NCBI GenBank assembly: GCA_028565635.1
Contig: JAOXYB010038061.1
Coordinates: 1-48,267 of the forward strand
Reading direction: 5' to 3'
DNA from: Phoronis ovalis
Lineage: Eukaryota; Phoronida; Phoronidae
Length of the DNA stretch: 48,267 nt
In this document: piece by piece, positions 3,541 to 47,602 of the stretch
Layout: each line of letters starts with the position of its first letter
How positions within the stretch are numbered: the first letter of the stretch is position 1
Made by a program: the position numbers and the translations under genes
Notes under the pieces: model-generated
Databases searched by the model: none
What the model was told of the DNA's origin: nothing
What the model saw: the letters and a program-made list of their open reading frames with translations, nothing else

Positions 3541-5458
3541 TGTATTGTGGTGTATTATGCTTTCATACATCACTTACAGCGCTTTAACTATTACTCTGCA
3601 GCATTTTACTATCTTCTTGAATTAGATATTATTCCATTCTTATTATTTTTTAATGATATTGTTGCAGTTTTGTTGAAAACATAGTACACCTCAAATAAAA
3701 GTAAGACATGACAATTTTCAATTACAAGGCGTTGATATTTAGTCATAATTGAGGTTAGCTGTCATGGTCTTTGTAATCCAAGGGAATATTCTCATACTTT
3801 CCTATATTATCCTTAGTGTATCTATCTCTTTTTGCGTACTCGATCATAGTACCCATAACGGCAAACTGGAAAACTAGGCTATTACCTCGGTCAAAAAAGA
3901 CAATCAAAAGCAATACAGCGGTCCGCCACTTTGCTGTTTATTATATTTCTATCCGCTTGAAACGAGACCTGTGATTGGAATGATTTTCTAAAATTGCACC
4001 AATCAAAACGTGTCGGATCGTATGTTTTTAATGGTTTGCTGTGAGCTGGGTCAATCTGTTTGTGGAAATTCACTATCATTCAAACGTATTCTTAATCCAT
4101 GCACATTCCACGATAATACGGACACACTGTCTAGCCCTCGGACTACAAGGATTGGTTCTTTTTTTATTGAAACATTCAATAAAAAAAAGCCCCTCTTCTC
4201 ATTTTCGAAATTTTAGTTCTCAAGACTGTGTGGGTTATTTTTTCCTTTATTGAAACACTCAATCTAATAAGGCAGTGATTCCCTTTTCCTCATTCAACTC
4301 AAAATGGAATAAAGAATATGTTCCTATACACATCATGAATACCTGATTTAATTTTTTTCTCCGTCAGACGATCATAACTATCACCATTTTTAATCAATGC
4401 ATAAATAGATAATAAGCAGGTTGAAGCGATTTCAAATGCGTTTGTCGGCAATGGAGAAATATAACGATAATTTGTGCCACAAGAACTTTTGAATTCCCTG
4501 TTAGGTAATATATCAATCTCAGTTGTTGCAACATTTTTTCCACTAAAACATTTAATAACATAGTATTTATGATTTTCAGATACTTTTAGGAAATATATCG
4601 TGTTAGGTAAAATAAAGCAACTGTTACACAACTGTTTTAAAACGACATGGCAATAACACAGGGGAAGAAAAAGTTGATAACCCAGACAAAGCGGTAAAGA
4701 AAGTGATTAGCTTGCGAGGTGTACAAGATAATGATACTGTAACAGTATATACATATGTATCAGTTTATTGAAGTTTTATCAGAATACTCAGTCTACAGAT
4801 GAATACCGGGTAACACACTGAAAAACACATTTGGCATACATCATTTAATTATTTACAACAAGTACAAGGCCACCTGATAACTGCTCACTAAACTATATAC
4901 AACTGAGGTAGTATGGATGAAATGCTGGAGGACCCCTGGTGATTTATACTGTACATAAGATACCTTGCCAATGTAAGCAGGCACTTGATGGCAACGTCCA
5001 TTATTGTTACTATATGACAGATGAATAATGACTGTTCTTAACGCTGTACACAATATAAGAATGGATACTCGGATGTATTATCATTGGTAACATGCTGATG
5101 CGAACAATAATTATTATCACCAACAACTACAAGTACATTAGCGACTTATTATTATAATAAACAATTCCACATTTTGTGAATGAACAATCACACAGCTCTT
5201 TAAATCCTTGAGCGACTCATTCCCAAAACTTGGAATTGTGGAGTTGTGACCATTAAGTGCACTGCGAATAGCCTGCTGGACACACTGATGTATTATAAGG
5301 TGAAAACACGCGGAAGTATTGTTACTGTTAAATTCATTTGGACCTACATGTACGTGTAGATATTCAAAGTTCACATTTTGCCAGGAACATACTAATTATT
5401 AATTTATCTTTCATATAAAGTATATCAACATTGCAAGGTATTCGTCCAGGCACATAGT
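3541..5458. other. Intergenic region between the two convergent genes
   Basis: This is AT-rich sequence without a recognisable gene. A 110-codon minus-strand frame at 4299-4631 matches no family I know and is probably chance. A short imperfect direct duplication is visible: 'ttattgaaacattcaat' near 4165 and 'ttattgaaacactcaat' near 4246, each followed by a T/C-rich stretch. The 3' UTR of the long minus-strand gene probably occupies the upper part. No ORF2, endonuclease or reverse-transcriptase sequence is visible beside the ORF1-like exon. Confidence 0.5.
4764..4849 (-). terminator. Candidate distal polyadenylation signals for the PKHD1L1-like gene
   Basis: Read on the minus strand there is an ATTAAA at 4849-4844 and an AATAAA at 4769-4764. 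They lie 610-700 nt after the TAA of the last exon. They would serve the long isoform ending in the ORF1-like exon. Confidence 0.3.
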
Positions 5459-5919
5459 TTATCGGTCACCAACTTCTTCAATTACATATTCTGTGCTTTG
5501 CAATTTTTTCCTGTGTTCCCAAACATTCATTCTATCTTTGTACCAAACAAACAAGACAACAATTGGGCGAGGGTTACCGTTAGGTCTTATTTTCCCAACT
5601 CTGTGGCATCCAGTTATTTTAAGACTTGCAGTGTCAATTTCCAGGTGTTTTGTAATTATGTCTTTAACTAGATTCTCACAATTCTCATTTGGTTTCTCAG
5701 CCACATTTAGTACACGTAAATGATACTTATAATTCTTGACAGAATCCTTCTCAACCGGTGATGTTTTTTCGTCCTCTTCATAAATGCCTTGAATTTTTAG
5801 GGTTGATGTTTTTTGTTTAGATACCGTTCCCGGATTACTGCTGAGCAGATCACTAGCTCCTGGTTTTCCGTACAGATTAAGAATTGGAGTGTCTCGTCCA
5901 CGCAATGAACTGTTCGAAC
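5459..5919 (-). CDS. PKHD1L1-like last exon 65: LINE-1 ORF1p-like C-terminal tail
   Basis: The exon starts after a good acceptor (attattttag) in the phase left by exon 64 and runs 152 codons to TAA at 5461-5459 without a break. The first 60 residues are Ser/Thr-rich and polar. The last 90 (from NYKYHLRVLNVAEKP) look like the RNA-recognition and C-terminal part of LINE-1-type ORF1 proteins (Transposase_22 family): an NLVKDIITKHLEI helix, then TGCHRVGKIRPNGNPRPIVV, FVWYKDRMNVWEHRKKLQ and a final YVIEE. The usual N-terminal coiled coil and any ORF2 are absent. The frame is also open upstream to an ATG at 5962, so this may be an independent retroelement remnant rather than a true last exon. If spliced, it places a nucleic-acid-binding-like module in the cytoplasm. 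Confidence 0.6.
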
Positions 5920-8900
5920 CTAAAATAATATTAATTTTGTATGCAGTTACTAAAAACACCATTCAATAATAAGCTGCAAGCTTGTTGAAGAACAGCATTA
6001 CTACTGTTTTTATCCAAGAATATTCACAAACAAATACTTTAAAGGTGTGCACTACCAAAAGAATATTATAACATAACACAACATAATTTCTGTTGTGAAT
6101 TCTGACATGCTTATTAGGTAGGGACGTTTTGACATCAGCAACAGACCAGTATAGTTAGCTAGCTAGCTAATGATATTCCGTGTTTGTTGATAAAATGCCA
6201 TTAAAGACTTTTAATTAGTTTTTATTTGCTTTTCTTTCCATGCAAAATGTGTGAGAGATTATTGTGCAATAATCAAACTGTACTAAAATTATGCAGACGT
6301 GCTAACAATTGTCTGAACATCACTGATTAGTGGTTACATGATTATACTTTCAATCTAACTTATTTTATTTGTTTAAAAAACTGGTGTCAATGCTTTACCA
6401 GCAGGCAAAAAAATGCTTTTAATCAACACACACACACAGTTAAATGATATAAAATATCTTAAAATCTCATGACACTTTAATACATGAATGTATATTCATA
6501 TTTATGATTAAAAATTCATCAGCAACACAGAAAAACAGATCCACTACTACGTGCAGAATTAATTTCATTTTATTTGTATTTTTAATCTCTACTCAAGATT
6601 TCATAAGTCTTCTGGCAAGAAGGATTTCCAAATCACACACAAATCAATAATTTTATAAAAACCTTGTTGTTTGAAGTCACATGGTGGCTGCTTAGAAAGC
6701 ATGCTTGGTGTTATGGGAGGCTGTTGGCTACTAACAGAATCACGATAAATAATACTTTGCAGATCAGGTGTACTGCTGCTAACTTTTCCACCTGAAAATA
6801 AAATAAAGTTGTATCAGTGCAAACCTCATTTCATACAAGAGATAATATGTGTTTGTTCCATAGTGAATTGCTGACAGTTGTGCATGTGTGACATGATATC
6901 ATATACAGTGATATTGTTGCAGCAATAGATGTGACGGGTTGTTAAACCTCTACACCATCCATCACACCTGAAGAAATCTGGGAAGTTGAAAATTAGTGTG
7001 TATTTCTAATCAAATGTTTTAATAGTTTTAATAAACAAACACTTTAATCAAATTTGCAAACCAAAAAAAATTTATCACACCTAGTAGTATAATAGTTTGT
7101 ATATCGTTCCTGAATAGTCAGGTTACTATTATAAAATGTCTACTGTTCCCATTTTTTACATATTGTTATTTACCTTTGGATGCTTTCTTTGCCATAAAGA
7201 CAAATACAACTATGACAACACCTAGTATAACCATGCCAGCGACTACAATACCAATAATACCACCAACAGGGAATGCATCAGGTGCTTCCTGAAAATCAGA
7301 ACAAACTGAGAGTCAGTACAAATTATCCATGATCAACATATTTATCAGCAACAGACTTCAGTCTAGACGTGGATAAAATCGTTGTTCTTGTATTATGGTT
7401 TTCAGTACGAGACCATATGATAATTCAGTAAAGTAGATGGTTCTTGGAGTGGTAGCAAAATATAGTGGGTTGTTGCTACTGCCCCATTATGATATTTGGA
7501 TCAAACCATTTATGGCTGTTAGTAAGGACTGTCCAATTGAAAATTATCAAAGACAGGAGGACCAGAAAATGTTATTATGATTGTGAAGGCAGGGTGGTTC
7601 TATAAAGTTTTAATTACAGAGGGAAGGTGTTAGTAAAAGGTTTCAGTATTGACAAGCTAATATTTATTACGAAAGGAGGGAACAACGTTAGTTTTTGAAG
7701 TAGGCAAAAAAGATCTTCATATATCTCCCTCCATCATAATATTTAATGGAACAGACTGAAGCTATTTTTTTGTTTATTGATGTTGACTTACTGTCGCTGT
7801 TGGTGGACTAAAGCCATCCAGTCCATCATAATATTCACCATCTACTGTCATGTACATTGCAGCCGTAATAACCTCATCCCCAAATGACAAGGTCATTGTT
7901 TCTTTGATTTCATCTGCGATTCCTTCTAGAGCAATGTTCACAGATGTCAGGGGTCCATATATTGCAAAAACAACAATCACAGAACCTGGAAAAATGGAAA
8001 AAGCTACTCAGTCTATCCCATATTTCTCTTGTGCAATAACTGGAAGCTTCAACTATAATATTGTAATGGAACCTGTGCATCTTTGGAAACACAGTTACTG
8101 AAGTAATCAAAAACGAACAAGTGAAATAGTACTGTTGAAGACTGATTATCATAACAGATGTTGAAGTTATCGTGTCAATTCAGACTAATATATGCTATTC
8201 ACACTATGGGTTATGGGAATTAATATTAATTATTAATTTCATCAGTTTAATATGTAACTTACATTCCCTTGATCTACTACAGTACTGACAATATTATTTG
8301 ACTATTTTTACTTAATATGGAATTCCATCCAGAATTACAACTGTTCACACACCCACCTGCTGTGACTATAAAATTATCCATAATGATGTCAGAGTATCTC
8401 CTCATGAAATGATTGTATACCATGGTGACAAAGTACTCTTCTTTACCACCAACAGTGCTATGAAAGTCAGCATCAAAGCGAAGAGTAACGGTCTTGTTTA
8501 TTTCAATTGACGGCAGCGTGTAGTTTACCGGGTATACGTCAATAGACCCTTCAAAGAGAAACAGAAATATATTGATTTTCAGTCAGTAGCCCATACAGAT
8601 CATCTTTGTTTTACGAGATTAAAATGGATTTACCATGTTGTTCAAAGTTACACAAACCAAAGTATTAAACTGATCATAATAAATACAATGTAGCTAGAGT
8701 ATATAAATGTATACATTTATATATTATTACATAAAATCAAAAACACTGAAAATTTGGTGAGCCTTTGCAAGCGTTGAGCTAAAATAATCATGATTGTTAT
8801 TTCTGTAGCAAATTGAAATCCAACAGAAAAGACGAATACTTTACAATTCTATAACAGATTTTGCTTATTAATAACACCAGTCTACAATAACTGCCGTCTG

Positions 8901-17900: not shown

Positions 17901-20900
17901 GAAATTCTAAGTCAAAAATAAAAGAGCATTTCTCTAAGAAGTGGCCAAAAAGTGTGCTATATCACATGAACTTCCAAAAAATATAATTCTTACCAAGAAC
18001 TTTTGAACCTACTGCAGCGCCACCTCCAAGGGGATATTCCAAAGTTGAATGACTCCCTTCAAGTATAATATTACACTGTCCATGATATGGCTTGTCCTCC
18101 CAGCCAATTAACAAGCGACCACCAATGATGATAACGTAAGATGTTTCTATTGTGAAATCCCGTACTTGATTGGTGATTGGGTCAGGATCAGGGTCTAATT
18201 CAAGGGAGCCTCGGATAACAAGACTGCTCATTCTAGGTAATTGTGTGTCTGCTACAATCCATTGATCTGCACAAGAAAATTGAACAAATAGTAATCTGCA
18301 TTGCAGAATTTGAATACAGAAGTCGTGTCAAATCAAACAAATAAGTCAAAGGTGATAAATGATATTAATATATGGAAATGAACTTCTGGCCATGTACACA
18401 ATGTTTGCAATGAAAATCAATTATAACTGACAGATACATATTAACAGAGTCTGACAAACTGTTGATAAAAAATAAACATAACTCTACACCTGAGAATAAG
18501 TCGACTTCTGAATTTGGTAATTAATGTTAACTTTACAGATAGTTAGTTTTAATTTACTTCAGAGTCTGAAGATGTATTTATTGCAATAAACTGGAAACAA
18601 GATTAGCCAAGTAAAACTGACACTAATACATGATAACACTTTTATTATCTATCACCAAAATATTTTCTAGAATTAAATAATAAAATTTAATTAAATAACA
18701 TCCAAGTATATCAAAATAAAAAAGCGCATTACAGTGATAAAAATATTGCTGAGTATGCATCGTGATATCGTTCTCAGTTGTTAATCTTACTTTCAGGAAT
18801 TATTACTGCTTCTCCATCTTGGGGTAGTCTGTTATTAGGCCAAGTAGATGGATCCGACCACCATTGAAATACCTCTGGTCTTTCTCTCACTGGTGGTATA
18901 GCACTAGGATCTGGAGGGGGTATACAATTCTCAAAGAAGCAACGATGGGCATCTAAAGCAACTGGACGATCTGTTCCTGGATCAATGTCAAATGAGATTG
19001 TTACTTCACGCTTTGTTCGAGATGCCCGCCCAGAGACTATAAAAATAGAAAAGAACTTGTACATAAGATTATGTGTATGTTGCAGATTATTAATTAGTAG
19101 ACTGCAGTAATCAATAAAATTTAATAATAAATACATTTAAAAGCACAAGTCATGTATTGTTAACAAAATATATGATGTACATTTCACTGGCAATGGAATT
19201 TTTAGTTAACTATATAGCTAGTACCTACAGTACCATTGGTAAAATACAGTACCATTGGTAAAATACACACAAACACACACACAAATACAATGATTGGGCA
19301 TTAATTAGAATGCCCCAGATGCAGAATATCTTCTAGTGTCGTTTGGAATCAACCCCACCAAACATTAAATAACTGTTCAATGGCCAGACAAGCCTGATCA
19401 TTGTTTAAAATACTCACTGATGTAGCTGAAGATCTTAGAATACGTGTCATAGAACCAGTCACCATTCATGTTGTTTTGATAGGTTAAAGGCATTGGAGAC
19501 ATTTCTCTACTTGCAGCAACACTAACCTGGTCAGGTTTCTGTGACATTTTATGATCAATTATGATATAATCTTGTTCCTGAAAAATGTAAAGCAGAAAAA
19601 AATATTGTCAGTTTTCGAATGGTTGTTATCATATTTTAATATTTACAAAACATGTCTCTCCCTCATACAATATCTTTTTTCTAATGTATGAAAGTATCAT
19701 AAAATAATGTATTTTTTTAGAAATATTAATTTCGCCTTCCGCTAGAATGTACTATTAAATAATAAATTCAAACAGTTACAATTACATACCCTCAGTCCAT
19801 AAAATGTTGCATCATAAGAAATGTTAGAGACATGTTCCACGTCTTCAAATGCAAACATATATCTATGTCCAACAGCAAAGTCAGCCATCCATCCTTTTGC
19901 ATGCGTGAGTCGTTTTTTTGCCCATGGAACTAAATTGGTACCCAAAGTAGCATTTATGAGTAGATTTTTGTAAACTAGAGAATGCGGCACAGCATTATTC
20001 ATTCCCATTCGAATAAAATGAACGTCACCAGGGCACTTGCTCATTGGTTTATTATTACCAAAATAGAAATCTGGTGCATCCATGCAGGTAATTGGAAGTA
20101 TGTCTACAGTAGGGACAACTCTGAATCCAACATTTCCTGTCAATGTGCCATCTAAATCACGGAATACTCCTTCATGGTCCCATTGCATAAATGCCTTGTG
20201 GGGAGAATTGATAAATTGTATCCCTTCAAATGCATATTCCCATCCGCCACATAAAGTTGTGCATTTACCATCCATACGAACAACACCAACAGCACCACAG
20301 GAACGATCAAAATTGATAAATGTGACATTTTGTACTTTCATTCCACGTGAGAATGGGAGAGCAATACCGCGTGTTGAACAACCTGAATCAGTAGAACCAT
20401 GTCCAACGATAACAGAATTAGAAACTAAAGCTCCATCATCTGTATACGCTTTATTTTTTGGTGCACGGATCAACTTCGCTTCAACACCAGCAGCGGTGTT
20501 TGAAACCATAAGGAAATCACGGAACTGTATAGTACCTCCGATCACCCATTCTGCTCCTTTTTCGCAATTCCAAGCTGTAAAACTTTGAAACACTCCCGGA
20601 GTAGGGGTGTTACTACCACAAGAACCACCTTCCATTGGTGTATACTCTTGGAACAGCCATAAACCAAACCAGCCTTGTGAATGTACAGTATTATTTAAAA
20701 ATTTTCCGACTGGAACTCGACGCTGACAGACATTTGGATCAAAAGAAGGCCCATCTGGATGTTCGTGCATTCGATACCAAAATCCAAAATGGCTGCCACC
20801 TGCCGCTGCATTATGCACAACAATGTTGTTAGGATTAGTAATCCAGAAAGCCGCTGGGGTGATGTCATCATTCAGTAAGCTGGTGCTTTGTTTGACAAAT

Positions 20901-23900
20901 ATAGCTAAATTATGCTGTAGTGTGTTACCAGTTTCGATTCCATCTTCAAGAAAGAATGCTCCACCCATAATGTTGAACAAAACTGTTTTTTCTATCAGTG
21001 TATTGTGTACGCCATGTATGTTAACAGCACGATTAAATGACCAATGAATGGCACATCCTCGAATGTAAGAAGAGGCCATGTCACCATTTAAGTGAAAATG
21101 AATAGGATATCTTCCAAGACGGAAAGCTTGTCCAACATAAGTCAGTTCAACATATTCAATTCGACCTGTAAAACAAAATTCAGTAGAATACATGTATATA
21201 TTAGCTACTCATGCAAATAGTCCTATATTTTGAGCATCTGGCATACATGTACAATTATGGCAATATGTAAAAGAATAAATAAAAATATTACCTTTTACCA
21301 AAGCCTAACCACAATAAATCTACTGAATTTAAATACATTTTCCATCAAGGTTGATGCCTATTCCACATTTTTTGGCATTTTTTATATTATATGGTAAATT
21401 GAAATTTTTGAATATTAACTAATATCCAGTACTAAATAATTAAAAGAAGTAAAAACTGTTTTAAAATTAAAACAGTCTGTGTACATGTACCTATAGCCAA
21501 ATTTTCATTTGGTCTTGGTGCATGTATCAAGATATGTCCACCAAACATATCACTTCCCATTTCTTCACCAAACCGGCCCTGGAAACAAGTCTGTACTGCA
21601 AATTCACCTAAAACAGAACAACAAGTATATGTATGAGTGCCAAGATGATAATAACGAAACCACAAACATATGGTCATTCACTTAATACGACTGCTTTGGC
21701 AGTCAGTGCACATCAATGTCATGGCGATGCTAATTAGAAACCACAAAATTGTGGCCATTCCTTTTAAAACTAAAAAATTTTGAGAGATCGAATCATTGGT
21801 GTTAATATATTCATGTGATTAAAGCTATATCTTTTTATGTTAAGCATCCCATTGATCACTAGTAGCCCGTGATAGAGATCTCAGTAAGAATCCATGTGAC
21901 ACCCAGAAATTCTTCCACCTTCTGTACATGCACACAGATGTCTGGAGAATATTAAGTACTAGTGTCAGAACAAAATAGAAAACGATAACAGTAGCAATCC
22001 AACAACGATGTCATCCAGTAGACCGCATACGATATAGGCATATTGTAAAACTAAATTTTATATTTTTTTGAACAGACTATAAGATAAATGACTACCCACC
22101 AGTGTTGAAGCCAGCAGCACATGCTGGTATAGTTTCATCCCACTGCATATCTCTGGATCCTCTCACAACAACATTATGAGTTAGCAGACCAACTTCTGCT
22201 CGTTTTTCTAGGCAAATTCCTGGTGCATAACACTCAGTAACACCAAGATGCTCATAGTTCAAGGCGGATTCTAAAGTTAAGGTCAACCCATCGTTTGAAA
22301 TGGCTGCAATTGTTGCCTTCTCACTTTCTCTTTGACTGTGGCGCTCCCCAGTGGTAGCAATGACAATTTCATCACCAACCTAATAAAAATATGACTGTTA
22401 AAAAACTTTCTTAAAAGTGAAACTAATTTGAATAATATGTAAAAACTTTCTAAATCACCTTATACCACATCTATCTTATACATACATTGTTTGCAGTTTT
22501 GTTGCAATACCAACATCTTTCATTTGCATAATACTAATTAAAAGCATAATTATACTCCCCATTGAATAATTATACCAGACATTTTAATACATATATTGCA
22601 GAGTGTACTTGTCTGTTCTTTTAACACAACTGGGCAAAAATCAAGCATTGAGCATGTACCTGCCAATTTACTGGGACTTGCAAAGTAATAGTGGTGTCAA
22701 AAGCATTTGCTGTGGCAGCCAATCTTGTCCATGTTTCTGTAACTGGACGGCCTGTAAAAAAAATTGTTTAGTACAGTACTTATTATGTCACTGGAAATAT
22801 GTACTGTTCAATATTTAAAAAGTTAAGGGCATTATAAAGTACAACAACAAGAATGTAGGATGTTTTCTGCTACGAATGGACATTTTGAAAATAATTAGCA
22901 AGTACTGTATATCCCTTTATTTTCGCGAGGAATTAATTTACACGAATTTTGCGAGCACATTAGCTCGCACAAATTAGTACCTCGCATTTAAAAGGATCGG
23001 CAAATCCAATATGGCTATGCATGGTAATCCGTCATTTTGAAATTTTAAGAAAAAAACAACAATATACATTTAAACAATTTAGTACTCACCACCTTTATTA
23101 ACATCGATTAAAACCAGAACGAAATCACAAGAATGTGTTGAAATGTGAATAAAATCCAATTGAAATGAAATGTTTGAATATGAATGTTATAAACCCGCAT
23201 TGAACTAGTAGTCACGAGTGACCTACTTTCGCTTCAAGCATGCTGCGTAGTAACCGGTTTAGAAAAACAGTTTTCTAGTATTTGTCGATTCATAATTCGC
23301 ACAATTTAAAACTCGTGAAAACGATTTTTGAACAAAATCGCGAAATTAAGAGACTGCGAAAATAAAGGGATATACAGTAATAGGCTATTATTGAAAACAT
23401 AATATACTTTTTATTATTAGAATATTAGAATTACCAGTAAAATCAGAGTAAAACTGCTACAAACAGAAATATTGACACCGTATTCTGCTGGTAATTAACT
23501 CCACAAATATCTCTCACTGCGAGCCCATAAATAACACCCCCTCCCTGTTTGTTATGAATCATATTTTGCATCAAAGCTCTAGGGTCCATATGTGGCACAC
23601 TGTGTAGTGTGCCATACAAAACTCCTACCATGTAAATCAAGTGTTCCTTCTCTTAGAGCCAAGACTTTTGTGCCATATATGGGCAGTTCTTTGGACCTAA
23701 GATGACCGTGTAGCGTAATGGTAGCTTTATGCTGAAATGGTTCAGTTTCTGTGCCAACTTGTAATGTGCCTCCATCAGTTATCAAGATCTTTTCTGCTTG
23801 AAGTTCGACATCCACCTCATCAAAGATCAGGGCACCTGCAGAAAGTTTAGCTTCATGAGTAATGTTACATAGTACTAAACCTGTGATGAATTGTATCAAC

Positions 23901-29900: not shown

Positions 29901-32900
29901 TATCATACTTTTACAATTTGCCATATTTCAACACACCTGAGTGGTATCCCATATTGTCAACAACATGTCTCTTTCCACTAGTTTTTGTCAAGCACACTAT
30001 TTGTGTAGCACTAAAGGACTCAATATCACATTCCACATTCCCAAATTTAATTTCATTGTCACCAAAATCATCGCCGAATCCTTCACCAGTAACAGTCACT
30101 TTAGTGCTGCCTTCTAGTGAGCCAGAGAGTGGAAACACATTATCGACACGCAGTATATAATCAATGGGGCTGATGCCATACGTGCTACAATATACAGGAT
30201 AGAAATTCATTTTTTGGCATACACAGCCACTCAAAGGTTTTATACAGCTATAAGAATGATGATGCTAAAGTTTATCAGTAGCCTGGCAAGTAGTTCATAG
30301 AGTACATGTCACACAAAATAAACACAACAGCCCATACATACTGTATCTTATGAAATTTTGACTTATTACATCAACTTTATTTTTCTAATTCTTTACTTCT
30401 TGAAACTCTTAAATAAAATGCTAATTTTCAGCTTCAAGAAATGTATTCAGTTTCAGTGCACTTCAAAGTTATTAAAAACAATACAACAAAATTTAAATTT
30501 TCAAACATAATAAAGTCTATGGTCAGAGCACGTGTCAAATAATTTATTATAGCAATAATAAATTCTTTACATCATTACCTTACATCTGCATTACCCATGG
30601 CGTCAACGTATACTACAATACTGTGTTGGCCTGGTCGATTTGGTGGCAACATGAGGGTCATCTGTGATGCAGAGACATATGTTACATTAGCCTCAGCTTC
30701 ACCAATGTAAGCCAAAGTTGAACTCTCCGAGCCCAGACTAGTGCCATTGATAACTAATTCATCTCCACCTATAATATCAATTACACAACATACTAATTTC
30801 TCAATTTAAATATCATTTGGTACGAACTAGATTTCCTTCGTTAACATGGACAAAATATCAATCTTTCTCATACTATTTTTCAAAAGTTAACATTACTGTT
30901 TGGTCCAATGATTTCCATACATGTAAGCAAACATGAAGCTAACTGATAGAAACCTTTATTTAGTAATTATATTGGCTGGGCTTTTGTTACATTATATTGC
31001 ACGTCAATTTCAAATAGCTTATTCAGTATGCAAGCATTTCTATGTAAATAATACAATTAAATTTATTAATTAATATATATCAGTGAATTTTTATCAAGCA
31101 GAGTTTTATTTCCATTAATTGATTTAACTTCAATAAACCACTGTTGATGACAAGATTATGCTATCATCTTGTTAACAATGTAAAGCTCCGTATTATAGAA
31201 ACATTCTCACCAGTAACAGAGCTTGTTGTCTGACTAATGGCAGTAATAACAGGTGTGAGAGAAGAGTCGTATGTAAAATCTGCAGGGCTTGCTAACTGAT
31301 CTCCTAACTGATTAACAACCACAGTACTGGCTCCTGGAGTGGACTGAAATAGTAGCAGTGACACTTTACAACACAAAAAATACATGTATATCATCATTAA
31401 AAAATACATGTATGTCATCATTAAAAAATACATGTATATCATCATCATTAAAAAATACATGTATACCATCATTAAAAAATACATGTATATCATCATTAAA
31501 AAATACATGTATGTCATCATTAAAAAATACATGTATATCATCATTAAAAAATAGTAATTTTTAAAAGCTAAATTATCTCATGAGGGAAAAATTAATCCCA
31601 GATGTGATACAATTACTCTTCAGGTCACCACACTGTTTTCCTTGGCTGGTTGTTCTAAATTCCCAGAGGGTGACCATGAGGCCAGTTTCCATGGTTTATT
31701 AATAGAAAAGTTACATATACTAAACAAATACTATTATTTATTATAATCTGAGTTAAAACAAGCACATACTTTAGTTCAGGGCCTTCATTTAACTCATTTT
31801 TCAGAAGATACAATATCATCAGTGACAGAATAGTACTATAAGATAAATCATCGAGAAAAATTATTAAAACCGAGTGCTTACTGCAACTGGTGTAGCACAT
31901 GTGACAATGGTGTAACTCTGAGATAAGATGATACAATCGTCACCACCAACTGTTACGGTAGCATTCTCCGCAAATCCTGTACCACTTAATATGATAACAG
32001 TACCACCTAAGAATAAAAAATATTTAAGTAATTGATTTCGATATTCAGTTCAACTAAATTTAGCAGACAATGTTACAGAATAATTGAACTTTACAAATGT
32101 CATTTAATTACCGCGATTATACAGGAAGACTTTTTTGTCTAAATTTGAATGTTTAAGGATAAACAAAGTTCTTATTTCGTGTGCGCCAGAATACAAATCC
32201 TTCCTTGACAGGCAAATAAAACAATGATTTATATAAAAAAAAGAAAAAGATCACTGCTACAATTTAAGGAAATTATAAATTAAACAAAGAATTGGATACT
32301 ATGAATATTTATTTATACCTCCAAGACTGCCAGATGTTGGATCCAGGGATAGGATCTGTGATTCATAAGTAAATTCATGTGGACCACCGGTCTCCTGCGC
32401 TAAACCTTTGTCAATAACAATTACATGAATTCGGAAGGTACCCACTGGACCAGCACCAATGCTGCACGTGATCTGAGTATCGGAGAGGCTGTCTACTGTA
32501 CATTCAGTGCCACCAATAGTTACAAGAACATCATCAGAGTTAGCACCAAAGCCACTGCCAGTTAAAGTCAATGCTGTGCCACTGACCTCAGAGCCTACAA
32601 TAAGTAATCTGACATAAATCTTTTTTTAAATTTAGTTACATGCTTATAATAGCTTTCATTTTGTGTAATGCACAAAGTAGTTCAAAAACGTTTTAAAGTG
32701 AATTGTCTTACTTTTGCCATTTCTATATATTAGGTCATATTGGTCTCTCATTATATTAATAATAATGCATCAGTGTTCTTTATCACACTGCATTTGTTAT
32801 AATTCCATTAATAAATTATAACACAGAGGGTTGGGCAATGTGAAGTACTGTTACCTGTATTTGGTGATGCCCCACTTAAAGTGGGTGTGCTGCCAAGTTC

Positions 32901-44900: not shown

Positions 44901-47602
44901 GTTATTGTAGGAGTGGCCCAATTCTGAGTCTGAAAAAAACAACGTAACCACCTCTTTCAGATTTTGTATTTTGACACAGAAATTTGGACTACATGTCAAC
45001 GTTTTATCATAATATGTTAATGGACAGGTTGAGTTTAATACGAAGTTTTTCCCAACCCTGTCTACAAAAGATTTCTTCAATTTCGGCGAATGCGTTTAAA
45101 CACGAATGTGCCTTAAACATTCCGCGAAATCGAGCATGATATAAATATGATTATGAAAGATTATCATTAGCTGAAGATTATCCTGGATTCCAGATCGGTA
45201 TTTTCTCTTGAACATGAATAGAGAACTACAAGAGATGACATATATGGTGGCTACTTTGGTATCTGACTTATTTATGTAAATACTTTAAAAGGCTAGAGGC
45301 GCAAATCATTAATAGTATAATACACGATGAAGAATATAAAGAGATCTGAAGCCTATGACCATGCATGCAGACTGGTAACGATTAATCCGTATTGTCTTTC
45401 ATTTTAGATCTAAGTTATATACTAATCTTCTTTTATACAAACTAAGAAAGAAACTTGGAATTCCTAAAGCTTTGTGGGCCATGGCAAGTAATGCTTGGAT
45501 ATAACCAATCTATAGGAATTAGTCATAACAATAGTTCGATTTATTCAAACTTAGATTAGATATATCTTTTTTATAGCATAACGTGGAAAGGAAACACAAA
45601 CAACGTAATAATAACAGTCATTTTTTTCTAATTTGAGAGAAGCTTGATGGCGTATGGCAAAGAGAGCGCAGTTGAGAAATGTAGCAAAGATTTTGTCTAC
45701 TTGGTAGTGAAATAAAAATTACACACAAAATTCGAATTCAAACTTAATTAATACACTGATATTAGCATTTATCACTTTTGTACCTGTAATCTGCAGTATG
45801 AACTAAAAGGGTCTCCATTACAGTGACTATCTAGCGAAATTTCTGTCCCGTCCACTGTCACTCTCACGTAGTACTGATCGTTTGGCATTGGCCTAGAATA
45901 GTTACCACAATTGTATCATAATTCAAGCGGAAAATTATCGACAATTTTTACATATATCCATAAGTTACAAATCAAACTGATAAAAAAATCACGTGATCAA
46001 AAGCTACTACACATTTCGTTTCTCAGATTGTTTAGAAGTTATCTCATTAAAAAGCTATAAAAAACATAAAAACAAAGTATTAGTGAAAATGTTAGAAAAA
46101 TTAAATTTACTTTGTGTAACACATGATTTGTGTTTCAGTACAGCCGTCGAGATGTATATCGCATACAAAGGATCGTGTAGTAGAAACAAATGTAACAGCA
46201 TTCCCCAAATGTTCCTGTCCTTCTCCAAAATTAAAACGATTTTTAGCAAATCCTTGTCCATAAATTGTAACTCTTGTTGCCCCTTCGTAACTACCAGCAT
46301 TTGGGGTTATTCTGCCCACACGTGTTTCTATAAAAGGACAAGTGATGACATCGTATAGATAATCATACCTTTTATCCAAAGTTCTGGAAATTATTTTATC
46401 AAATGATTTTCACTGTACTAAAACGAATAAATATGAGTGGTGCTTTTGACTTCTAAAACCATTTTCAAGTTGTCTTTTGAAAAATTCGGAAAGATATAAA
46501 CGACATTTATTTGTTTTTTTTGCAAATAAACACTTATGAAAAATATTGAGGTTATGCCATTTAATTATTATGTAAACTAAATATCATTACATACAAAATA
46601 TGTAATGAGAGGATTTTATTGGTCAAGTGCAAAAAGCTCAGGTTGCTCTATTTATTGCACAAATTAAATTACAAATAATTTTTACTTATGCAATCAAACA
46701 CAACAACTAGAAATTGAGATTATGCCATTTAATTATTATATAAACAAGTCATTATTTTACATACAAAATATATCTAAGTACTAAAATATTGAATGCAATT
46801 TCGAATTATTGAATTTAGCATTGATTCTGCAAAACTCTTTTAGCTCACGTAAATTTTAAAGTGTTTCCGTTCGAATCTGCTTTGGTAGGTAGGGAGCTGC
46901 GCGTGAACGTACGTGAATCCAATTTTATCTTAACTAACTTTCTTTTATCAGAAGAAGCTGGAATCTGAAAAAAATATGACTTACCGCACCATGGTATATT
47001 GCAATACTCTCTCTTCACTGTGGCATCAGTAGTGTAACACCAAGGGCCATTGTAATCTGCTGTAGGATTACGACAGAAATTCGACGCATCCCTAATTGTT
47101 TCGTCGGGAAAGGAGTCGGCATTTATTTCGTCATGAGAATGTGGTGTCTGCAAAGCCCATCGCTGACAAGATCGACCACTGAGGGTAATTGAGAGGGTGC
47201 CAACATATTCACGACCTCTTTGGGTTATTTTGCATTGTTCTAAAAATAATAAAGGAAATGGTGTTCATTTTTATATTTGCAAATCAAATACGAGAAAGTT
47301 CAAGTAAGTGTTGCCTTGATCGTTAATATCGACAAGGTCCGAAAGAGAGCTAAATTAAGCTTTATTTATTTATATTTGTTCACATTATTTTGAAAATTGT
47401 ACTGAACAGAAAGGGACACATTATAAAACTACAAGCCGGGCAGGCTTCCAATTATCTTTCGCTGTCAATTTACTATGTTAAAAAACAGTCATTCAAATGA
47501 TTGCATTAGTTTTATACATTAAAAAATAATATTAAACATACCTGTAATTGCATCCGCCTTCCAGTAAAATAAAAATAAAAAGTAAGAAAATAACACCTTC
47601 AT
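5459..47602 (-). CDS. PKHD1L1: Fibrocystin-L-like giant receptor, complete gene model (65 coding exons)
   Basis: A single-pass type I membrane protein with a huge ectodomain, orthologous to vertebrate fibrocystin-L. I traced 65 exons whose phases agree at every junction; the sum is 14,211 nt, divisible by three, giving 4,736 aa. Order by approximate residue: signal 1-18, kringle 23-105, IPT1-3 106-434, PA14 435-619, linker 620-1159, IPT4-7 1159-1483, cupredoxin-like 1483-1603, IPT8-14 1640-2256, G8-1 2265-2385, beta-helix 1 2400-3000, G8-2 3110-3235, beta-helix 2 3310-3680, RRKR 4052-4055, TM about 4510-4533, cytoplasmic tail to 4736. The human protein (about 4,240 aa) has the same core but no kringle and a very short tail. 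Vertebrate PKHD1L1 is a surface protein of hair-cell stereocilia; its role in this animal is unknown. Exon coordinates are in the segment entries. Untranslated 5' exons may lie upstream. Confidence 0.93.
6569..6574 (-). terminator. Candidate proximal polyadenylation signal
   Basis: A minus-strand AATAAA (TTTATT on the plus strand) lies 27 nt past the read-through stop codon of exon 64. A further AATAAA lies near 6364. They could end a short-tail isoform of the PKHD1L1-like gene. Confidence 0.4.
6601..6791 (-). CDS. PKHD1L1: PKHD1L1-like exon 64: cytoplasmic tail, with alternative read-through end
   Basis: The spliced exon is 6663-6791 (129 nt, phase 1 on both sides), encoding about residues 4541-4584, a Ser/Pro/Gln-rich cytoplasmic segment (GGKVSSSTPDLQSIIYRD and SQQPPITPSMLSKQPPC). 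It can end in two ways. Splicing at CAACAAG|gttttt joins the ORF1-like exon 65 in frame. If the donor is not used, the frame runs on for 20 residues (GFYKIIDLC...PEDL) to a TGA at 6601-6603, followed 27 nt later by AATAAA (minus strand 6574-6569). That makes a believable short isoform of about 4,603 aa. Which form dominates cannot be read from DNA. Confidence 0.75.
7174..7288 (-). CDS. PKHD1L1: PKHD1L1-like exon 63: transmembrane helix
   Basis: The exon encodes residues 4503-4541. After EAPDAFPVG comes GIIGIVVAGMVILGVVIVVF, about 24 uninterrupted hydrophobic residues with small-xxx-small (GxxxG-type) spacing, then FMAKKASK, a positive stop-transfer sequence that fixes the N-out, C-in orientation. 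The acceptor (gattttcag) and donor (AAAG|gtaaat) are good. Reading through the donor would end the protein after two more codons. Confidence 0.93.
7792..9960 (-). CDS. PKHD1L1: PKHD1L1-like exons 59-62: membrane-proximal extracellular region
   Basis: Exons are 9580-9960, 8977-9181, 8357-8548 and 7792-7985, residues about 4179-4502. Exon 59 begins with a beta-sandwich segment that vertebrate fibrocystin-L also has (GDTTIPFKNGWFNFTDLGIS). Vertebrate proteins end soon after that with the TM, whereas here about 230 further extracellular residues follow (exons 60-62). Exon 62 (GSVIVVFAIYG, then helix-like VNIALEGIADEIKETMTLS) vaguely resembles a SEA-type fold placed directly before a membrane. That is a guess from pattern, not a family match. 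Several N-glycosylation sequons (NGT, NYT, NKT, NIS) suit an ectodomain. Confidence 0.85.
10496..13397 (-). CDS. PKHD1L1: PKHD1L1-like exons 55-58: post-helix region up to and past the RRKR site
   Basis: Exons are 13238-13397, 12612-12847, 11830-12081 and 10496-11343, residues about 3680-4178. The segment includes DCVDMDCDGMKK and DVDGTFLGTVGG (the 'DxDGS/T' motif shared with the CEMIP/TMEM2 group), FEWGGDPRRGLGNYRIPYAM, then ESLDSDTETRRLSPVAMASG and LINGPQDHGWCAGYTCQKR, all strongly conserved with vertebrate fibrocystin-L. Exon 58, 848 nt, continues through a beta-rich segment and carries the furin-type RRKR motif. Its donor (TCATCA|gtaaga) is phase 0. Confidence 0.92.
10865..10876 (-). other. 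PKHD1L1: Conserved furin-type cleavage site RRKR
   Basis: Exon 58 codes for TSRRKR followed by Ser at about residues 4050-4056. Vertebrate fibrocystin-L has a near-identical RRKR-Ser in the same context after the second beta-helix, and its relative fibrocystin/polyductin is processed by proprotein convertases. Conservation across this distance supports real processing into a large ectodomain and a membrane stub, perhaps still associated. Confidence 0.65.
13772..16518 (-). CDS. PKHD1L1: PKHD1L1-like exons 50-54: second right-handed beta-helix region
   Basis: Exons are 16369-16518, 15853-16086, 15070-15437, 14303-14555 and 13772-13876, residues about 3310-3680. Conserved motifs in order are FGVSAEVALLTRNIKIIG, FGARVLVGTAAEGN, VEFYHTGQEGYV, GFSPAIGLFGANGM, HHTVGEG, TIWPGTYQDRFEV and SSIEVSHNTLVDNGVGVF: PbH1 coils of a parallel beta-helix. 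The exon 53 donor is ambiguous, because phase-1 GT sites exist at 14302 and 14311. I prefer 14302, which yields FGKVGVSFPT, resembling the vertebrate pattern (RSGICWPT) at this position; the alternative removes three residues. Confidence 0.88.
17376..19036 (-). CDS. PKHD1L1: PKHD1L1-like exons 47-49: second G8 domain
   Basis: Exons are 18791-19036, 17994-18266 and 17376-17624, residues about 3054-3310. After a Pro-rich linker (ENCIPPPDPSAIPPVRERPE) the G8 unit begins FQWWSDPSTWPNNRLPQDGE, then NQWIVADTQLPRMSSLVIRG, GGRLLIGWEDKPYHGQCNI and, in exon 49, FGGLDLHGTNRYPYWTRLA. The second G8 plus the following beta-helix repeats the G8-1/beta-helix-1 layout, as in all animal fibrocystins. Introns are phase 1. 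The 857-bp intron 49 has a 12-bp inverted pair (TGTAAATCCCAT at 16705 and its complement at 16958) of doubtful meaning. Confidence 0.92.
19008..19019 (-). other. PKHD1L1: Possible furin-type cleavage site RTKR before G8-2
   Basis: Exon 47 codes for SRTKR followed by Glu at about residues 3059-3064, fitting the proprotein-convertase pattern R-X-K/R-R. It lies in a linker between the first beta-helix and the second G8 domain, an exposed place. I do not recall a basic site there in vertebrate fibrocystin-L. Cleavage is inference from the motif only. Confidence 0.4.
19418..22379 (-). CDS. PKHD1L1: PKHD1L1-like exons 43-46: first right-handed beta-helix region
   Basis: Exons are 22100-22379, 21491-21607, 19790-21165 and 19418-19577, residues about 2410-3054. 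The 1,376-nt exon 45 is the largest in the gene and is nearly colinear with the vertebrate protein. It has RLGRYPIHFHLNGD (His2564, His2566), GGAFFLEDGIETGN, STSLLNDDITPAAFWITNPN, HFGFWYRMHEHPDGPS and HSQGWFGLW. These are parallel beta-helix (PbH1) coils, shared with CEMIP and TMEM2. Exon 44 carries GRFGEEMGSDMFGGHILIHA. Exon 46 is a linker (NNMNGDWFYDTYSK) toward the second G8 half. Confidence 0.92.
22660..24499 (-). CDS. PKHD1L1: PKHD1L1-like exons 40-42: first G8 domain
   Basis: Exons are 24340-24499, 23629-23835 and 22660-22751, residues about 2257-2409. The G8 signature is clear: RWSSPFTWGGQSPPTAGDFV opens it, followed by GALIFDEVDVELQAEKILIT and GGTLQVGTETEPFQHKATI, with HGHLRSKELPIYG and LDLHGRPVTETWTRLA at the end. 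G8 domains are beta-rich modules named for eight conserved glycines and shared by fibrocystins, CEMIP and TMEM2. The introns are phase 1. The intron between exons 41 and 42 contains the MITE-like element at 22903-23379. Confidence 0.92.
22903..23379. mobile_element. MITE-like non-autonomous DNA transposon in intron 41
   Basis: This is a 477-bp element bounded by 24-bp perfect terminal inverted repeats, 22903-22926 (beginning TACTGTATATCCCTTTATTT) and 23356-23379. Each terminus begins or ends with TA, which could be a TA target-site duplication as in Tc1/mariner-like elements. There is no transposase frame. The interior is richer in CpG (cgcgag, ctcgcac, tttcgcg) than the surrounding intron and has further, weaker inverted symmetry next to the termini ('tttcgcga', 'aaatcgcgaaatt'). 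It sits between the two G8-1 exons 41 and 42 without disturbing splice sites. Confidence 0.8.
24816..25447 (-). CDS. PKHD1L1: PKHD1L1-like exons 38-39: IPT/TIG domain 14
   Basis: Exons are 25267-25447 and 24816-24972, residues about 2144-2256. IPT14 reads VITSVEPRRGGTMGGTRITI and continues across a phase-2 intron into VTIGGSNCVLESSSTTEIIC. It is the last of the 14 IPT repeats, the same number as in vertebrate fibrocystin-L, and directly precedes the first G8 domain. Confidence 0.88.
25879..28712 (-). CDS. PKHD1L1: PKHD1L1-like exons 33-37: IPT/TIG domains 8-13
   Basis: Exons are 28554-28712, 28262-28428, 27761-27923, 26366-27352 and 25879-26025, residues about 1603-2144. IPT8 starts NVDSIQPNIGTSNTDIVI, IPT9 VDSISPSSGSTAGGTRLT, IPT10 IVNSVSPVQVSGFSTNITL, IPT11 IISNVNPSTGSTEGGTTI, IPT12 TITGVTPVQGVSGDTVTI and IPT13 LDSITPSTG running into GSFGGGQTITLTGSGF. 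Exon 36 is 987 nt and holds three IPT units that occupy several exons elsewhere in the gene, suggesting intron loss or a never-split ancestral block. The intron after exon 33 uses a GC donor. IPT9 is short at its exon 35/36 junction, so a tiny missed exon there cannot be excluded. Confidence 0.87.
28552..28553 (-). other. PKHD1L1: GC splice donor of intron 33
   Basis: The exon 33 end reads ATTG|gcaagt. Apart from the C at +2 it matches the donor consensus, typical of GC-AG introns. Using it joins PNVDSIQPNIG to GTSNTDIVISGSG in frame inside IPT8; no GT donor nearby gives an intact IPT8. Confidence 0.75.
28916..29491 (-). CDS. PKHD1L1: PKHD1L1-like exons 31-32: cupredoxin-like domain
   Basis: Exons are 29309-29491 and 28916-29092, residues about 1483-1603. 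The sequence VYGIGYAWNPARLDITVGD, then TVLWRWDSP, and near the end GTYYYWSD...VISMRGVIHV, follow the strand pattern of blue-copper (cupredoxin) domains and match the same position in vertebrate fibrocystin-L. The copper ligands of true cupredoxins (His after WxW, then Cys-His-Met near GTYYY) are absent: here the corresponding places read DSPYL and YWSDSVD. The domain is therefore probably structural. Confidence 0.8.
29937..32594 (-). CDS. PKHD1L1: PKHD1L1-like exons 26-30: IPT/TIG domains 4-7
   Basis: Exons are 32319-32594, 31882-32006, 31211-31343, 30579-30768 and 29937-30184, residues about 1159-1483. IPT4 is seen as ALTLTGSGFGANSDDVLVTI, IPT5 from SLDPTSGSLGG across the exon 26/27 junction, IPT6 from ITAISQTTSSVTG, and IPT7 as VFPLSGSLEGSTKVTVTGEG. 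Each has the GxGF turn and a paired Cys near 'xxCxVxxxxxxxIxC'. Exon 29 has two neighbouring donors; only the downstream one (GTAAG|gtaatg) matches the phase of exon 30. A 24-bp minisatellite lies just upstream of the exon 28 acceptor. Confidence 0.86.
31375..31545. repeat. 24-bp minisatellite with TACATGTA core, intron 27
   Basis: Seven head-to-tail units of 'aaaaaatacatgtat' followed by '(a/g)(t/c)catcatt' make 171 bp, that is seven 24-mers with one 3-bp insertion. Units differ only at two positions. Each holds the palindrome ATACATGTAT. Because 24 is a multiple of three, both strands stay open through the array, giving spurious frames. It starts only 32 bp upstream of the exon 28 acceptor (minus strand). 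Confidence 0.9.
32855..35892 (-). CDS. PKHD1L1: PKHD1L1-like exons 19-25: linker region before IPT4
   Basis: Exons are 35786-35892, 35080-35255, 34702-34859, 34295-34445, 33596-33753, 33137-33256 and 32855-32960, residues about 834-1159. Exons 19-20 form a jelly-roll-like segment (LCFAYRSNVEIFLKLYVS, later AEFFVDEVFIG) resembling a carbohydrate-binding-module or MAM-type sandwich, but I cannot name the family. Exons 22-23 carry a second 'GIPFNVSAASLKAFLETIPS' unit and HSRTWTVRW, parallel to exon 16. Exon 25 (AYINGIPTRCSGDCSYSW) is the conserved lead into IPT4. The donors at 34701 (GGCT|gtaagt) and 35079 (GAAA|gtaagt) are strong. Confidence 0.83.
36413..38666 (-). CDS. PKHD1L1: PKHD1L1-like exons 15-18: linker region after PA14
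   Basis: Exons are 38546-38666, 38121-38258, 37249-37400 and 36413-36643, residues about 620-833. No named domain is obvious. The order of motifs follows vertebrate fibrocystin-L: a strand-rich segment, then SELQDALNALPSLQANSVSV followed by GWRYTVTF (a fold that recurs in exons 22-23), then SRCPGWL, a FYENFEEQ stretch and EAFCGYASVKNP. The two related 'LxxALxxLPS...V' units suggest an internally duplicated beta/alpha module. Intron 16 (38120-37401) shows nothing beyond AT-rich sequence. Confidence 0.82.
38873..41003 (-). CDS. PKHD1L1: PKHD1L1-like exons 12-14: PA14 domain
   Basis: Exons are 40702-41003, 40002-40093 and 38873-39032, residues about 435-619. The sequence has the PA14 pattern: GNRGVIFYAWND at the start, MPAYFIPPWGGEYQFLLQSE in the middle, then NTYYNDPQQISRRFSLQAG and YYMETVHQDGTLAAYLKLAV. 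PA14 is a beta-barrel, often carbohydrate-binding, found here in vertebrate fibrocystin-L as well. Exon 13 must begin at AACCTAG (40093) rather than at the stronger-looking 'ctgcag' 14 nt further in, because only that choice keeps the frame and the PA14 motif. The preceding intron holds the inverted-repeat element at 40424-40606. Confidence 0.85.
40424..40606. repeat. Short inverted-repeat element, intron 12
   Basis: A 13-bp perfect inverted pair, GGCCACCCTTAAA (40424-40436) and TTTAAGGGTGGCC (40594-40606), bounds a 183-bp segment with a T13-14 tract near 40500 and a small palindrome-like block (gccgacccacc and ggtcggtagg). It is GC-richer than the intron around it. It is probably a MITE or a SINE-derived fragment; I cannot name the family. 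Confidence 0.55.
41560..43134 (-). CDS. PKHD1L1: PKHD1L1-like exons 9-11: end of IPT2 and IPT3
   Basis: Exons are 43021-43134, 42008-42118 and 41560-41646, all phase 1 to phase 1. Exon 9 contributes GMNVYFILDSYYGRSKPD, a strand conserved in this position of fibrocystin-L, and then MLQTYA, which runs into EITAVSPSSGSVEG, the start of IPT3 (about residues 369-434). Exon 11 supplies the conserved Cys pair (TKC...ILC) that closes IPT3 before the PA14 domain. The 901-bp intron 9 contains imperfect tandem repeats (42594-42915). Confidence 0.87.
42594..42915. repeat. Imperfect ~120-bp tandem repeat, intron 9
   Basis: Three degenerate copies are seen. Each has a 'attg(g/a)ttttcaa'-like block, a 'taacat/tatcat' block, 'aaaa(a)cagaagg(t/c)' and a 'cctc(t/c)gaaaaaaa' block. 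The blocks at 42721 and 42841 are exactly 120 bp apart. It is AT-rich and non-coding. Confidence 0.5.
43859..46327 (-). CDS. PKHD1L1: PKHD1L1-like exons 3-8: IPT/TIG domains 1 and 2
   Basis: Exons are 46111-46327, 45784-45892, 44778-44929, 44518-44571, 44125-44190 and 43859-43935. IPT1 begins RVGRITPNAGSYEGATRV (about residues 107-214). IPT2 begins PTITALYPISTAPGSLLTI (from about 220) and includes VRILRVYVGGNQC. These Ig-like, plexin/transcription-factor type domains form the beaded N-terminal ectodomain, and this stretch lines up closely with the start of vertebrate fibrocystin-L. The small exons of 54, 66 and 77 nt are supported by phase continuity and strong donors. The exon 7 acceptor (gccaaag|ATCTTAC) is the least certain, as a nearby AG at 'gcaaag' also exists. 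An (AT)n run lies in the intron between exons 6 and 7. Confidence 0.85.
44256..44277. repeat. (AT)n microsatellite, intron 6
   Basis: Eleven AT/TA dinucleotides in a row lie in the intron between exons 6 and 7. A simple repeat with no other feature. Confidence 0.9.
46545..46772. repeat. Direct duplication of ~58 bp, intron 2
   Basis: The block 'attgaggttatgccattt...' ending 'acatacaaaatat' at 46545-46601 recurs with few changes at 46713-46772, about 168 bp away, inside the intron between the kringle exon and IPT1. It is non-coding and probably a local duplication. Confidence 0.6.
46985..47239 (-). CDS. PKHD1L1: PKHD1L1-like exon 2: complete kringle domain
   Basis: This 255-nt exon encodes residues 21-106 and contains exactly one kringle. 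The six cysteines are at 23, 45, 76, 88, 100 and 105, spaced for C1-C6, C2-C4 and C3-C5 disulfides. The hallmark NFCRNPTADYNGPWCYTT and the ending EYCNIPWC are unmistakable. In lysine-binding kringles two aspartates precede GPWC (NPDAD); here the first is Thr80 and the second Asp82 is kept, so classical lysine binding is doubtful. The exon is phase 1 on both sides, so it could be inserted or skipped without a frameshift, which is typical of exon shuffling. Vertebrate fibrocystin-L goes straight from signal peptide to IPT1. Confidence 0.93.
47542..47602 (-). CDS. PKHD1L1: PKHD1L1-like exon 1: start codon and signal peptide
   Basis: The ATG at 47602 opens MKVLFSYFLFLFYWKADAIT, a typical signal peptide: a lysine, an unbroken hydrophobic core and likely cleavage near Ala-Asp-Ala. 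The exon ends in phase 1 before a good donor (ACAG|gtatgt). No upstream in-frame extension was needed. Because the exon carries the secretion signal, and kringle and IPT exons follow in the same phase, I take this as the true translation start. Confidence 0.85.

Follow-up and report, generated by a model that had tools for sequence, protein, structure and literature searches.

An L1-type ORF1p RNA recognition motif lies in frame behind the cytoplasmic tail of a Phoronis ovalis fibrocystin-L gene

Can the nucleic-acid-binding domain of a retrotransposon become the intracellular domain of a membrane protein? A contig of Phoronis ovalis (GCA_028565635.1, JAOXYB010038061.1) raises this question. 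We analyzed all of its 48,267 nucleotides (hereafter the window; contig C2053 of the 77.4 Mb draft genome of 4805 contigs that was searched). On its minus strand, the last exons of a fibrocystin-L (PKHD1L1) gene are followed by an exon resembling the RNA recognition motif (RRM) of ORF1p, the first open reading frame (ORF) protein of long interspersed nuclear elements (LINEs). A preliminary description had proposed that the tail and this domain are fused in frame. At the DNA level the in-frame arrangement is well supported by homology of the gene, by an ORF1-like match in the same genome and by the predicted fold. We explain it, with moderate confidence, by a lineage-specific capture: one of at least two fibrocystin-L paralogues gained a LINE ORF1p RRM as its intracellular domain, spliced to the tail.

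The gene spans 5459-46327 on the minus strand, according to tblastn matches and a rough gene model of 64 exons; its 5' end is not fixed. The fibrocystin-L proteins of a lamprey, a coelacanth, a nemertean, a rodent and a shark were used as tblastn queries. All five annotated proteins gave exon-by-exon, broadly colinear matches from 46.3 kb down to 8.3 kb, and the large ectodomain is colinear with known fibrocystin-L proteins. For the frame of the largest exon (19790-21165), 745 proteins matched at E <= 0.001, with a best E of 5.4e-181. Of these 745 fibrocystin-like proteins, 120 were listed; most of the 120 were named fibrocystin-L or PKHD1-like (a few had generic, other or no names) and the top identity among them was at most 58%. 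A Pfam CEMIP_beta-hel match lies in the same exon. Fibrocystin-L belongs to a family of hearing and kidney proteins.

As in fibrocystin-L, a single transmembrane helix lies close to the C-terminus and is followed by a cytoplasmic tail. The hydrophobic exon at 7174-7288 (minus strand, like all features below unless stated; EAPDAFPVGGIIGIVVAGMVILGVVIVVFVFMAKKASK), read from the sequence, is entered in phase 0 and left in phase 1. It is conserved in a sister gene of the same genome. The first cytoplasmic tail exon (6663-6791) agrees in position, phase and first residues (KVSSS) with the single tail exon read in that sister gene. A GT..AG intron of phase 1 (5920-6662) leads to the last exon (5459-5919), which holds 152 open codons and the stop codon of the fused frame (5459-5461). 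Since a phase 1 intron flanks the tail exon on either side, the tail exon and the last exon join in frame, and both the phase match and the intact 152-codon frame of the preliminary description were borne out. If stops were as frequent as in the neighbouring intron, a run of 152 open codons would have a chance of ~1.6e-6, although this null is unsuited to ORF-derived sequence. Trained on 3,470 codons from homology-supported exons, the rough gene model scored 1402.9 bits with the last exon and 1383.4 bits when ended at a stop at 6601. The acceptor at 5920 scored 4.6, about the median of the gene, and is equalled by 1.9% of all AG in the window. About 690 bases past the fused-frame stop there is a candidate poly(A) signal, AATAAA (4764-4769), a hexamer common in AT-rich DNA of such composition.

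The RRM half of the last exon matched an ORF1-like locus of the same genome at E 1.4e-15. Its closest sequence relatives were an ORF1-like locus with coil and RRM, and an ORF1-like stretch ahead of endonuclease-like and reverse transcriptase (RT) frames. An AlphaFold2 model placed a beta-alpha-beta-beta-alpha-beta fold at exon residues 64-148 (~5728-5474), with block means of the model confidence (pLDDT) between 65 and 91. Residues 1-63 had pLDDT under 50 and were nearly free of helix. The best structural match of the predicted fold was human LINE-1 ORF1p, which filled the top five rows of the structure comparison, the best of them 2.7 Z units over the next RRM. By both sequence and predicted fold the RRM is of the L1 ORF1p type known from type II LINEs, and we consider the domain call sound. 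These structural rows and the nearest sequence relatives make it most unlikely that an ordinary cellular RRM, of other than LINE origin, was joined to the tail.

Other parts of a LINE ORF1p were not seen. No coiled coil was found ahead of the RRM, and the window had no match at E 0.01 to the coil of the ORF1-like locus L003 or to the locus L005. No C-terminal domain follows, the frame stopping 4 residues past the last RRM strand. The Transposase_22 profile (Pfam PF02994), suggested in the preliminary description as a check, matched neither the exon nor anything else in the genome. Because the same hidden Markov model leaves L003, L004, L005 and L040, the remaining ORF1-like loci of the genome, undetected as well, the test has no power here. 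Pfam and PDB sequence searches with the last exon gave no match, and PDB searches with L005 and with profile A1 gave weak matches only (best E 0.29 and 1.2). Two protein-database searches with the exon returned 12 and 11 word-sharing candidates, none at E <= 10 and E <= 1, respectively. The plasmid, viral and bacterial/archaeal collections contained no relative of the exon.

Within the exon, similarity to ORF1 begins at residue 51 in the BLAST alignment to L003. The earlier assignment of the second half to ORF1p therefore stands for the RRM, but the ORF1-like part is limited to residues ~51-152 (5462-5767). The first third of the exon (residues 1-50, 5768-5919) has the codon statistics and low pLDDT of a host-like, disordered tail. 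Its coding score was 0.234 per codon, with GC by codon position of 0.50/0.46/0.30 against 0.50/0.48/0.29 in the tail exon; the corresponding values for residues 51-152 were 0.071 and 0.48/0.30/0.30. The controls were overlapping noncoding windows of the same contig, hence not independent trials, with the fibrinogen and kringle frames of the contig either left in (unmasked) or masked out. The score of residues 1-50 was reached by 12 of 7,393 unmasked windows, by 4 of 6,047 masked windows and by none of the 176 open masked ones. The whole-exon score was reached by none of 2,111 masked windows. All nine open 152-codon windows in the unmasked control scored as high as the exon, and masking left no open window of that length. 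The computed isoelectric point is 9.2 for the RRM, 8.8 for the window tail ahead of it and 5.8 for the sister tail. By codon statistics and the start of the ORF1 similarity, the last exon looks like a piece of host tail followed by a piece of other origin. An ATG in the same frame (5962, MVFLVTAYKINIILGSNSS...), 43 bases ahead of the exon start, could instead begin a separate, small, ORF1-derived single-exon gene or transcript downstream of fibrocystin-L. Such a gene is very unlikely, as a good acceptor ends the stretch ahead of 5919 and the exon starts with host tail-like composition.

The genome was surveyed for RTs, with 131 RVT_1 matches listed after 150 of 169 candidates were scored; own-genome repeat counts are lower bounds. 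None of the 131 listed matches falls in the window, in agreement with the earlier remark that nothing of ORF2 (endonuclease/RT) lies next to the exon. In a DNA search, the exon with part of the preceding intron (5920-6375) occurred once in the genome, with no second copy. The next best protein match to the exon in this genome had 45% identity, which makes a recent insertion from a surviving family unlikely. By a count made by eye, as many as 58 of the 131 listed RT matches have no in-frame stop; a frame that stays open over ~100 codons is therefore only a weak argument for selection. The open frame had been taken as a sign of recent insertion or purifying selection; on these counts we rejected both arguments, the recent insertion also because the exon and the adjoining part of the intron are single as DNA.

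Three side observations were made. Two stretches 3' of the last exon (~5335-5061 and 4560-4320) share 71-94% identity with scattered places, in the manner of short dispersed repeats; they were not used as evidence. L003 (C2935) is a broken ORF1p-like coil plus RRM followed close by by a NADAR domain (PF08719, E 5e-19, stops read as X), and we know of no description of such an arrangement. L040 (C241) is an open ORF1p-like frame of 258 codons with an N-terminal coil of the L003 type; a partial copy on C2377 is 94% identical, which suggests that the two belong to a younger family.

The sister gene (L043, C1415:23000-30868) is a second fibrocystin-L paralogue. In the largest exon, it is 72% identical to the window gene over the first 301 of 458 residues, and later pieces are 58% and 44% identical, with stops as aligned (introns or damage). 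Another exon is 62% identical over 280 residues, and the five last exons found ahead of the tail are 39-59% identical. Its transmembrane exon is 59% identical over 34 residues (E 0.005). Its tail exon has the same phase as that of the window gene, starts with ARKVSSS (GGKVSSS in the window) and runs 80 residues to its own stop. No RRM-like match was found in the 2 kb from this stop to the contig end. The simplest reading of the sister sequence is that it ends with the transmembrane exon, one tail exon and a stop, without an RRM; alternatively, a further exon may be joined inside the frame. No remnant of the sister tail was found in the window intron. With a sister that seems to lack the RRM and host-like codon statistics in the first third of the exon, one paralogue probably captured the RRM. 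Gain in one paralogue would be simplest, and loss in the other is the alternative.

More distant homologues were also compared. A phmmer search of the ORF1 exon against 120 fetched homologues, many of them partial, gave no match at E <= 10. A nemertean homologue (P0058) has ~195 residues after the transmembrane helix, none of them matching ORF1; the score of its tail alignment with the window tail was reached by 720 of 2000 shuffles. Further partial fibrocystin-like contigs (C2454, C3460 and C2269) have tails that could not be read with confidence.

Several observations speak against a spliced, captured exon. Donor 6662 scored 0.09; of the 62 other donors in the gene model, just 4 fall below it, and 12.9% of all GT in the window reach this score. 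The gene model itself picked a still weaker donor, GT 6680, likewise of phase 1. If the tail exon is read through (6569-6662), a stop ending at 6601 is reached after 20 codons and is followed by AATAAA (6574-6569), which makes a ready alternative gene end. Foldseek gave a best E-value of 1.3e-3, and the fold was obtained from a four-sequence alignment as the best of five models, two of which had mean pLDDT of 46 and 45. The coding statistics of residues 51-152 are modest, their score being reached by 1.9% of 4,808 unmasked windows and by 24 of the 35 open ones among these; with masking it was reached by 34 of 3,650 windows, though by none of the 5 open ones. The alignment of the sister and window tails lacks significance (its score was reached by 193, 346 and 573 of 2000 shuffles), so it does not tell which of the two paralogues lost or gained this exon. 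The collections searched gave no orthologue from a close relative, with or without the RRM.

With a weak donor and an in-frame GT at 6680 preferred by the model, the exact junction is unsure and either GT may serve. The join placed earlier at 6663/5919 is thus right in frame but doubtful in position. Together with the AATAAA behind the 6601 stop, the ambiguous donor makes two isoforms plausible, the read-through giving a possible short one. The weak donor and this alternative end would also suit a LINE ORF1 fossil behind the gene, open and in phase by chance, with a message that ends at 6601 or rarely uses the exon. Such a fossil also fits the sister gene, whose apparent end lies in its first tail exon, and given how many listed RT fossils are free of stops, an open ORF1 scrap would not be rare. 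We nevertheless regard the fossil as unlikely, though it is the most serious of the rivals. The exon begins with 50 codons that do not resemble ORF1 but are open and in phase and have host-like codon statistics; the codons gained by reading through to 6601 score -0.067 per codon and resemble noncoding DNA; and the good acceptor is precisely in phase.

We compared the arrangement with known systems, relying on the portions of the cited papers that were available. Fibrocystin-L/PKHD1L1 and fibrocystin/PKHD1 share with the window gene exon-by-exon homology and a single transmembrane helix close to the C-terminus (PMC13424714, PMC4031230). The fibrocystin tail has 192 residues with a ciliary targeting motif (PMC13424714, PMC4031230); it has been proposed to be cleaved in a Notch-like way, with the fragment then entering the nucleus (PMC4031230; PMC13424714). 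The human fibrocystin-L tail has 9 residues (PMC13424714). In contrast to the window gene, no RRM is named in those portions of the two accounts (PMC13424714, PMC4031230). Type II LINE ORF1p consists of coil, RRM and C-terminal domain, the last of which assists the RRM in nucleic-acid binding (PMC4120745). The window exon shares its L1-type RRM, but has no coil, no C-terminal domain and no adjoining ORF2, and is a single copy within a host gene. L1TD1 of placental mammals is likewise host coding sequence from a LINE ORF1p with the RRM kept. However, L1TD1 is almost wholly ORF1-derived, with coil, RRM and C-terminal domain in its second coding exon (PMC4161310), whereas here an RRM alone ends a giant membrane protein. 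F-box A2 proteins with a transposase helix-turn-helix also join a transposon domain to host domains (PMC12062965); there a DNA-transposon domain sits on an F-box protein, here a LINE RRM on a membrane protein. The literature searched, on fibrocystin-L evolution and domain fusions, the fibrocystin intracellular domain, ORF1p domestication, ORF1 RRM types and transposon-host fusions, gave no account of a fibrocystin with an ORF1p domain, although one may exist in print. What would be new is the RRM capture on fibrocystin-L; the capture of transposon domains as such is already known.

Under the capture that we favor, an RRM from a type II (L1-like) LINE ORF1p would have been gained at the cytoplasmic end of one paralogue. 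From the element, just the linker end and the RRM would have been taken, without coiled coil, C-terminal domain and ORF2. Splicing of tail exon 6791-6663, from donor 6662 or 6680, to exon 5919-5459 would yield the fused message, the latter exon supplying first a host-like disordered linker, then the RRM. A second, intron-retaining isoform would stop at 6601 and lack the RRM. Translated, this message would give a type I membrane protein whose flexible cytoplasmic leash carries a fold of the RNA-binding type. The leash and fold would belong to the fused form alone. By analogy with fibrocystin, the RRM might act at the membrane or after release of the tail. Having neither coil nor C-terminal domain beside it, the lone RRM may bind weakly or serve protein contacts. 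Rather improbable, and drawn from the same analogy, is a scheme in which a surface signal has the tail cut free in a Notch-like manner, releasing a soluble RNA-binding protein, while alternative use of the last exon switches the RNA-binding form on or off.

If true, the cytoplasmic side of a membrane protein would be a new place for a LINE RRM. A sister gene seemingly without the RRM sits in the same genome, which makes this a clean test case. The tails of the two paralogues compared here are ~80 residues (sister) and ~195 residues (window gene, if spliced as read). Considering also the short human and long nemertean tails, the tail varies among lineages and may be a site where intracellular functions get added.

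An Rfam scan of the window gave no match reaching the gathering threshold. A kringle domain (PF00051, E 5.2e-24) was found at 46845-47264, on the strand of the fibrocystin-L gene and just upstream of it; the domain may belong to a separate gene or to an N-terminal exon. On the plus strand, two adjacent frames at 1172-2805 contain PAN (E 1.5e-4) and fibrinogen C-terminal (E 3.4e-38) domains and probably form one fibrinogen-related gene, opposite in strand to fibrocystin-L. Between exons of the gene model, at 31375-31553, lies a tandem array of 7.3 copies of a 24-base unit with a partly open frame (YFLMM repeats).
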